Assembly: GCA_902786245.1 (NCBI GenBank)
Contig: CADABS010000018.1
Coordinates: forward strand, 1-40,701
Length of the DNA stretch: 40,701 nucleotides
From: an uncultured Erysipelotrichaceae bacterium
GTDB lineage: Bacteria; Bacillota_I; Bacilli_A; Erysipelotrichales; Erysipelotrichaceae
Direction: 5' to 3'
The notes beneath the pieces are model-generated. The model saw only the letters and a list, made by a program, of their open reading frames with translations, was not told the origin of the DNA and ran no database searches. This document shows, one piece after another, positions 18,864 to 20,241 of this stretch. Both the position numbers and the translations under genes were made by a program. Numbering within the stretch: the stretch's first letter is position 1; the number at the start of each line of letters is the position of its first letter.

Positions 18864-20241
18864 TCATTTCCTGTGGGGTTCATCCATCAGCGGCGGACAG
18901 TGCGAAGGAGGATACAGTTCCCGTGGGGAAACCGTCGTCGATATCATGCCGCAGGGAAAGGGAATCCGTTTTCAGTATCTCAACGATCCGGGAAAATATC
19001 TGGATCATCCGGATGAATGGTATCCCTCCAGAAACGGTGTGGAGTTCTATGAACACTATAAAGAAGACATTGCCCTGTATGCGGAAATGGGCTTCAAAGC
19101 ACTGCGTTTCTCCGTGCTGTGGTCGCGGATCTTCCCGACAGGGGAAGAAGAGAATCCCAGTGAAGAAGGTCTGCAGTTCTATGACAATGTCATCAATGAA
19201 CTGCTGAAATATCATATTGAACCGGTCATTACGACGATTCATTTCGATATGCCGCTGTGGGTGGTGACAAAGTACAACGGTTTCTATAACAGAGAAACGG
19301 TTGATGTATACAGGAAGTATGTACAGACCATCGTAGACAGATATGCGGATCGGGTAAAATACTGGATTTCCTTCTGCGAGATCAATGTCATGAACCATGC
19401 CCTGTATATGGTCGGCGGAACGATTGTGCCGGAAGGAAAAGACAGAAACGAAGTCCTGCTGCAGTGCGCATACAACAAGCTGCTTGCCAATGCGTCTATG
19501 GTACAGATCTGCCATGACTTTGATCCGGCCATTAAAGCAGGATGCGAGATCGCCGGGGCACCGGTATATACTCTGCATTCTTCACCGGAGGATTATCTTC
19601 TGAAACTGCAGGAAGACAGAATGAACTTCCGCTATGGCGATGTGATGGCAAAGGGAAAGATTCCGTTCTATTTCCGGAAGGATCTTGAAAAGGCAGGTAT
19701 TGAGATCAGACCGGAAGATGAAGCATACCTGGCACAGAATACACTGGATTTCATCGCACCGTCCTACTATAAATCCAATCTTGTTTCTTCTGAGGGAACA
19801 CGGACAAATCCGTATCTGCAGGAAACGGCATTCGGCTGGAGTATCGATCCGCAGGGCATGCGCATTACGCTGAATGAACTGTATGAGCGCTATGAAAAGC
19901 CGATCCTGATCGTGGAGAACGGACTGGGTACCTATGATACTGTCACAGATGGGAAAATCTGCGATGATTACCGCATCGATTATCTGAAACAGCATATTGC
20001 CCAGGTAAAGAAAGCCGTGGAAGAAGACGGTATCGATGTGATCGGATATCTGACATGGGCGGCGATGGATGTCGTATCGACCAGTGAGGGAATGATGTCC
20101 AAGCGGTACGGTTTCATCTATGTCGATCTGGATGATCGGGGCAATGGAACATATGCCCGCAGCCGGAAGAAATCATTCTTCTGGTATAAAAAGGTCATTG
20201 CGTCCGATGGCGGTGATCTTGAAAATGATATTGAATACTGA
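18856..20241 (+). CDS. GH1 6-phospho-glycosidase with Cys before the acid/base Glu (copy 2)
   Basis: GH1, 461 aa. The nucleophile is Glu354 in IVENGLG, the acid/base Glu175, and the glycon His is His129 in HFDMP. The phosphate-site set is present ([13 protein letters not shown]). The acid/base segment reads SFCEIN: the almost invariant Asn before the Glu, which in GH1 contacts the sugar 2-OH, is Cys174. This suggests a substrate altered at C2, or loss of activity. The start at ATG 18856 overlaps the end of deoC by 8 nt; an in-frame ATG at 18814 lies deeper inside deoC and is unlikely. It ends the operon before a strong terminator. Confidence 0.9.

Follow-up and report, generated by a model that had tools for sequence, protein, structure and literature searches.

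The stretch of DNA analysed here (hereafter the window) comprises 40,701 nucleotides from an uncultured Erysipelotrichaceae bacterium and contains, on its forward strand at 18856..20241, a gene starting with an ATG at 18856 and encoding a 461-residue glycoside hydrolase family 1 (GH1) phospho-beta-glycosidase (Pfam PF00232; E=3e-102, 342.9 bits against a cut-off of 22.6). The acid/base segment of this protein, designated GH1-Cys or GH1_2, is SFCEIN (TTC TGC GAG ATC AAT in the DNA), in which Cys174 (TGC, 19375..19377) stands where an Asn normally contacts O2 of the glycone, while the alignment columns of the acid/base Glu175 (GAG, 19378..19380) and of the nucleophile Glu354 within the VENG motif (GAG, 19915..19917) are invariant. 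The segment SEGMMSKRY (20083..20109, forward strand) is predicted to bind the 6-phosphate through Ser410, Lys416 and Tyr418, conserved as in 6-phospho-beta-glucosidases, the family in which these three residues have that role. An earlier note on this DNA had reported the Cys ahead of the acid/base Glu, together with NEIN in the five other GH1 genes of the window; the TGC GAG at 19375-19380 and all five NEIN segments are indeed read in the DNA, and Asn occupies this site in every other GH1 read from the same 2.7-Mb genome. Few residues of GH1 are as constant as the Asn preceding the acid/base residue; in the rice enzyme Os3BGlu7 the O2 hydroxyl is bound by N175 and the nucleophile, and mutating that Asn in GH1 alters both specificity and efficiency (PMC7356692). 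GH1-Cys falls below the NCBIfam subfamily cut-off (best score 496.9 bits versus 639), as do the other GH1 genes of the window. Of note, GH1 is strongly expanded in this genome, with approximately 30 genes, and fragments in addition, in 2.7 Mb.

Upstream of GH1-Cys, the window encodes a PRD/EIIA-type PTS regulator (11391..13319, reverse strand) and, on the forward strand, a PTS EIIC of the lactose/cellobiose family (13446..14762; PF02378, TIGR00410), a ManA-like sugar-phosphate isomerase (15799..16731), a GH1 with the normal NEIN (GH1_1; 16734..18149) and, 9 nt further on, a diverged deoxyribose-phosphate aldolase paralogue of 234 residues, designated deoC2 (18159..18863; TIGR00126). The order manA-GH1_1-deoC2-GH1_2 is kept in locus L031, and the ManA-like gene is also kept in the CEIN clusters L171, L175, L176 and L178. 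Two small zinc-ribbon proteins are encoded between EIIC and manA (14803-15285 and 15295-15798), and are found at the equivalent position in L171, L175 and L176. Further away, again on the forward strand, lie a split transketolase with separate N and C halves identified by Pfam (3696..5439), a DUF7916 protein (36931..37866; PF25509) which is a conserved partner of CEIN clusters (62-84% identical among the neighbours), a Gfo/Idh/MocA oxidoreductase fused to an HbpS-like domain in an unusual architecture (37912..39423) and an RpiB/LacAB sugar-phosphate isomerase (40082..40552; TIGR01120). The transketolase and RpiB genes are 13-21 kb from GH1-Cys in the window; elsewhere, the split transketolase pair follows deoC2 in L180, L183 and L250, RpiB proteins with 71-72% identity are encoded directly within Coprobacillaceae-type clusters, and MocA proteins are also found beside GH1-Cys in L034, L037 and L033. 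No RPE was found within the window. An anaerobic sulfatase maturase (21065-22213) scores above the TIGR03942 cut-off, and none of the scanned window proteins was recognised as a sulfatase.

Orthologues of GH1-Cys, at 51-78% identity, were recovered from Erysipelotrichales and from one Coriobacteriaceae MAG, their sources being Solobacterium, Stoquefichus, Massilimicrobiota, strain OPF54 and the Coriobacteriaceae MAG, and all of them carry the Cys. Among named relatives, a Solobacterium MAG obtained from goat ileum (L031) is the closest, and the host bacterium is therefore probably gut-dwelling. The clade is present in 12 of 315 genomes of the order, with scores of at least 778 bits as compared to 567 for the best other GH1. 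A sequencing error or chance as the source of the Cys was rejected, given its retention in every orthologue. A survey of the DNA pattern W..[FY]CE.N in 372 Bacillota genomes, many of them very small and probably GH1-poor, returned only the known clade and chance matches outside GH1. In the Coriobacteriaceae copy (L039:5773-7358) a frameshift splits the gene near residue 35, which may represent a MAG assembly error or decay.

With the exception of the Asn, GH1-Cys resembles the GH1 6-phospho-beta-glucosidases, i.e., E. coli BglA (2XHY), S. mutans BglA (4GPN/4F79) and the B. licheniformis enzyme (6WGD), in its fold, both Glu residues, the Gln, His, Tyr and Trp residues and the Ser/Lys/Tyr site, and its cluster likewise holds a PTS gene. 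Its closest solved structures are 6WGD, 2XHY and 3PN8, all 6-phospho-beta-glucosidases, and its AlphaFold model (pLDDT 79.6) superimposes on 4GPN with a Z score of 45.4 and an rmsd of 2.1 over 443 residues. It differs from these enzymes in the Cys at the O2-binding position, in its overlap with deoC2, in scoring below the named NCBIfam subfamily cut-offs and, according to the alignment, in a shorter loop at approximately residues 312-323. Gln15, His129, Glu175, Tyr305, Glu354, Trp401, Ser410, Lys416 and Tyr418 are all present; where the orthologue sequences are complete, the Cys, both Glu residues, Gln15, His129, Tyr305 and Trp401 are kept in all, and the Ser/Lys/Tyr phosphate site is kept save for a single Ser-to-Gly change. 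Furthermore, comparison of GH1-Cys with its L031 orthologue yields a dN of 0.15 and a dS of 1.7, similar to the neighbouring genes, and the gene is under purifying selection.

With the nucleophile, the other -1 subsite contacts and the 6-phosphate residues preserved and dN much lower than dS, GH1-Cys is probably an active enzyme. The same observations bear on a possibility raised in the earlier note, that the Cys could mark an inactive enzyme; a catalytically dead GH1 of this kind might serve as a sensor or decoy. Retaining beta-glucosidases deprived of a transition-state contact become less active on normal glucosides, which counts for such a reading. The altered specificity and efficiency of Asn mutants (PMC7356692) point the same way, yet both catalytic Glu residues and the remaining -1 and phosphate residues have been kept across 51-78% identity, and with dN so far below dS we consider a dead enzyme very improbable. 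All signs in the sequence suggest that, the family's Asn aside, GH1-Cys would work as a GH1 6-phospho-glycosidase.

The end of deoC2 at 18863 and the GH1-Cys start at 18856 produce an overlap of 8 nt (18856..18863, forward strand), as stated in the earlier note, and translational coupling of the two genes is likely. The association extends well beyond the window: deoC2 is present in 12 of 12 genomes with GH1-Cys versus 54 of 303 others (315 genomes of the order; p=3e-9), and adjoins GH1-Cys, with at most one intervening gene, in 10 of the 12. In one further genome (G285), contig C118 ends within tktC (...EEHNIIGGLY) while contig C44 starts with the next part of tktC, followed by GH1-Cys and PFK, which indicates the order deoC2-tktN-tktC-GH1-PFK across the contig end. 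In the Coriobacteriaceae MAG, deoC2 is located 128 bp from GH1-Cys on the opposite strand, and the only clear case in which the two genes are far apart in a genome is that of G141/L033. The proposal that the Cys variant and deoC co-occur in other genomes is thus borne out, mostly with the two genes adjacent.

It should be emphasized that deoC2 is not the housekeeping gene. Its product scores 163.7 bits against TIGR00126 (cut-off 117.3), and the copies adjoining GH1-Cys score 161-185 bits, as compared to 300 bits for the housekeeping deoC of the same genome (G000:C2); each of the ten genomes checked holds a higher-scoring deoC (up to ~310 bits) in addition to deoC2. Identification of deoC2 as the nucleoside deoC was therefore rejected, the higher-scoring deoC being located elsewhere in each genome checked and deoC2 forming a distinct subfamily, which in the window lies outside a nucleoside operon. 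The Schiff-base Lys and the proton-relay Asp and Lys are kept, as Asp99, Lys134, Lys163 and Lys196 of DeoC2 align with D102, K137, K167 and K201 of the E. coli aldolase (DERA, 1JCL), and C47 is also common to both. DERA residue T18, in contrast, is Ala or Ser in DeoC2, G205 is Cys in most copies, N75 (Gly in housekeeping copies) is Asp and H78 (Leu in housekeeping copies) is Phe. The subfamily signature consists of DFPFG for GFPLG, D(Y/H)(A/S) for DHT, ETDAL, and KGSGC for KASGG, and the canonical phosphate loop (GTSSG / GASS) is absent, being replaced by GVNYTSA here and by GVGxxS in relatives, in a loop two residues longer than that of housekeeping DeoC. Across the order, deoC2 is present in 66 of 315 genomes, and most copies lack a nearby GH1, being accompanied by glycyl radical enzymes, HxlA/HxlB, a deoB-like gene or none of these. 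The notion that every deoC2 pairs with a GH1 was likewise rejected, since no GH1 was found near deoC2 in Lachnospiraceae and Clostridiaceae samples. Because most copies stand without GH1 and in such other company, deoC2 probably represents a general 2-deoxyaldose-phosphate aldolase family which is not specific to glycosides.

Reading around deoC2 genes throughout the order revealed other GH1 genes adjoining them, and in GH1 lineages other than that of GH1-Cys such genes also lack the Asn, which extends the link between Cys and deoC suggested in the earlier note. A second Cys lineage (WLTFCEIN) is 42-47% identical to GH1-Cys and up to 57% identical to normal GH1, and occurs in loci ordered DeoR-deoC2-tktN-tktC-GH1-PFK (G314, L250) or deoC2-tktN-tktC-GH1 (L180), the former operon being common to both Cys lineages (G314, and G285 across the contig end). 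A full-length GH1 with Val at the site (WATIVEQN, L323), whose closest solved relatives are 6-phospho-beta-galactosidases, begins 3 nt after deoC2. Two genomes have a third type, with Thr (WFAFTEPN), next to deoC2 (L298, L299); a further three members are not adjacent to deoC2, their genomes nevertheless carrying it, and relatives with 37-42% identity possess the normal Asn. Among 206 unique GH1 genes, a count which covers the sampled lineages and leaves out the three non-adjacent Thr members, found later, a residue other than Asn is present in 16 of the 26 genes within 3.5 kb of deoC2 versus 3 of the 180 elsewhere (p=2e-14, ignoring kinship), where the set from elsewhere was collected by similarity to GH1-Cys, in some cases with flanks of only 1.5 kb. 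Those three all belong to the Cys clade of the window enzyme, and all 16 loci in which a GH1 lies no more than 3.5 kb from deoC2 hold a non-Asn GH1. In L310 an Asn-bearing GH1 lies 3.9 kb from deoC2, with unrelated genes in between. When the residue is labelled on the GH1 tree, the topology as drawn requires four changes, and joining the two Cys lineages reduces this to three. An independent origin of the two Cys lineages was not counted: a single origin is not rejected by an AU test (p=0.83), and so three origins are counted rather than four. It would thus appear that the Asn has been lost at least three times beside deoC2, to Cys, Val and Thr.

This recurrence bears directly on the possibility that GH1-Cys is an ordinary 6-phospho-beta-glucosidase in which the substitution is tolerated, deoC2 having co-clustered with it through general pentose-phosphate and glycoside use in sugar-rich clusters. 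The fold and phosphate site are those of ordinary 6-phospho-beta-glucosidases, and the large clusters contain many normal GH1 genes, some of which adjoin deoC2, such as GH1_1 here. A neutral change, however, would not be expected to persist in all orthologues, nor would one expect separate GH1 lineages that neighbour this aldolase to have replaced the Asn repeatedly, by Cys, Val and Thr, and Asn is found in all other GH1 read from the genome itself; an ordinary enzyme is consequently regarded as unlikely. We instead favour, at a probability of approximately 0.65, the reading that GH1-Cys and DeoC2 form a pair in which a glycone modified at C2 is passed from the former to the latter. The idea of the earlier note, that the two handle a C2-modified or 2-deoxy glycoside phosphate, is thereby supported, and by more than the co-occurrence on which the note had made it depend. 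Loss of the O2 ligand leads to the prediction of a glycone without a normal 2-OH, while a DERA-type aldolase needs a 1-aldehyde, a 3-OH and an enamine-forming C2, which points to a 2-deoxyaldose. The more specific proposal, that GH1-Cys is an active 6-phospho-beta-glycosidase whose -1 subsite is fitted to a 2-deoxyhexose and whose product goes to DeoC2, is given slightly less than even odds.

According to this proposal, the PTS would import a beta-glycoside and phosphorylate its 6 position, upon which GH1-Cys would hydrolyse the glycoside 6-phosphate with its two Glu residues in the usual retaining mechanism but lacking the contact between Asn and O2, which may be dispensable since 2-deoxy glycosides are intrinsically more labile. 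The 2-deoxyhexose 6-phosphate so released would then be bound as a Schiff base by Lys163 of the co-translated DeoC2, which would cut the C2-C3 bond, yielding acetaldehyde and erythrose 4-phosphate, the latter of which could enter central metabolism via the split transketolase, RPE, RpiB and PFK, all of which recur in GH1/deoC2 clusters. The sequences themselves establish the Cys and its conservation, the intact catalytic residues of both enzymes, the linkage of the two genes and the repeated loss of the Asn, whereas we infer the identity of the substrate, its products, and PTS uptake and coupling. Neither 2-deoxyglucose as a natural compound nor any 2-deoxyhexoside nutrient is known (PMC6365646), which counts against the 2-deoxyhexose reading. 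Also weighing against it are the many deoC2 genes that stand away from GH1 and in other company, the separation of the two genes in G141/L033, the Thr members not adjacent to deoC2, the failure of the AU test to reject a single Cys origin and the distance of the transketolase and RpiB genes from GH1-Cys in the window. Literature searches returned nothing direct on DUF7916, on a 6-phospho-beta-glucosidase with deoC or on a 2-deoxyglucose-6-phosphate aldolase.

The glycone might alternatively be changed at C2 without being 2-deoxy, i.e., 2-keto, 2-amino or 2-O-substituted, in which case DeoC2 would act at another step of the pathway or on a derived intermediate. All that the missing O2 ligand indicates is that the usual 2-OH contact no longer exists, and the Gfo/Idh/MocA oxidoreductases and DUF4867 cupins of the clusters could modify C2 or C3. 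Class I DERA-type aldolases, on the other hand, need a C1 carbonyl and an enamine-bearing C2, which best fits a 2-deoxy sugar; Val and Thr at the site would suit an apolar C2 rather than an amino or keto group, and the annotated neighbours did not include any nagA/nagB-type gene. Such a glycone is also considered unlikely. The 2-deoxy reading, in its broadest form, would imply that gut bacteria of the Erysipelotrichales possess an undescribed 2-deoxyhexoside route, composed of a PTS, a GH1 without the O2 ligand and a DeoC paralogue yielding acetaldehyde and erythrose 4-phosphate, and that three or more losses of this ligand went hand in hand with the aldolase; this we advance tentatively, at odds clearly below even. 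If such a route exists, the residue before the acid/base Glu would be a readable marker of C2-modified GH1 substrates, and if the substrate is indeed 2-deoxy, it would follow that the gut or rumen offers a class of nutrient not yet recognised and that DERA-type chemistry on hexoses has a role in biology. Were the glycone only C2-modified, the substrate class of a GH1 would still be predictable from one residue and a neighbour. The repeated loss of the Asn beside one aldolase paralogue links a specificity residue to the next pathway step in a manner that can be read from sequence.

Two described systems share components with these clusters. The D-allose cassette of Listeria monocytogenes (lmo0734-lmo0739) encodes LacI, an RPE-family epimerase (AlsE), RpiB (AlsI), a TIM-barrel protein, a PTS and a 6-phospho-beta-glucosidase, as do the Coprobacillaceae-type GH1-Cys clusters, in which LacI, RPE family, RpiB and DUF7916 genes adjoin deoC2 and GH1-Cys; unlike in these clusters, no deoC2 is reported for the cassette (PMC5893763). 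The DUF7916 protein may be the counterpart of the Listeria TIM-barrel protein lmo0737. Its model (pLDDT 77) is TIM-barrel-like at low confidence with weak structure matches, and a sequence search returned no solved homologue. GH1-Cys could be a 6-phospho-beta-alloside hydrolase of a D-allose-like cassette with LacI, AlsE-like and AlsI-like enzymes and DUF7916, in which DeoC2 would represent a side activity. Allose, however, is altered at C3 rather than C2, and GH1-Cys retains Gln and His, which bind O3; in the window an AlsE-type epimerase and RpiB do not lie next to GH1-Cys, RpiB being 20 kb off and RPE absent; the RPE of the clusters scores above the rpe cut-off and below that for allulose-6-phosphate epimerase; and at several loci a non-Asn GH1 accompanies deoC2 with neither RpiB nor RPE present. 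An allose reading accounts for RPE, RpiB and DUF7916 in Coprobacillaceae-type clusters, though not for the change affecting C2, and is deemed quite unlikely. Sulfoglycolysis clusters with DUF4867 (SftX/SqvB, PMC11968277) similarly combine DUF4867 with RpiB and transketolase families, while differing from the GH1-Cys clusters, in which no sulfoquinovosidase or sulfofructose enzymes were seen and GH1 and DeoC2 are present instead.

With regard to other neighbours of deoC2, a PFL-like glycyl radical enzyme of ~800 residues and its activase are often encoded directly beside deoC2 in Erysipelotrichaceae (L246-L249, L285, L312-L317 and others), and E. coli deoC likewise neighbours yjjI, a DUF3029 gene. 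Genes for HxlA/HxlB (3-hexulose-6-phosphate synthase/isomerase) are found next to or near deoC2 in L181, L246, L290 and L305.
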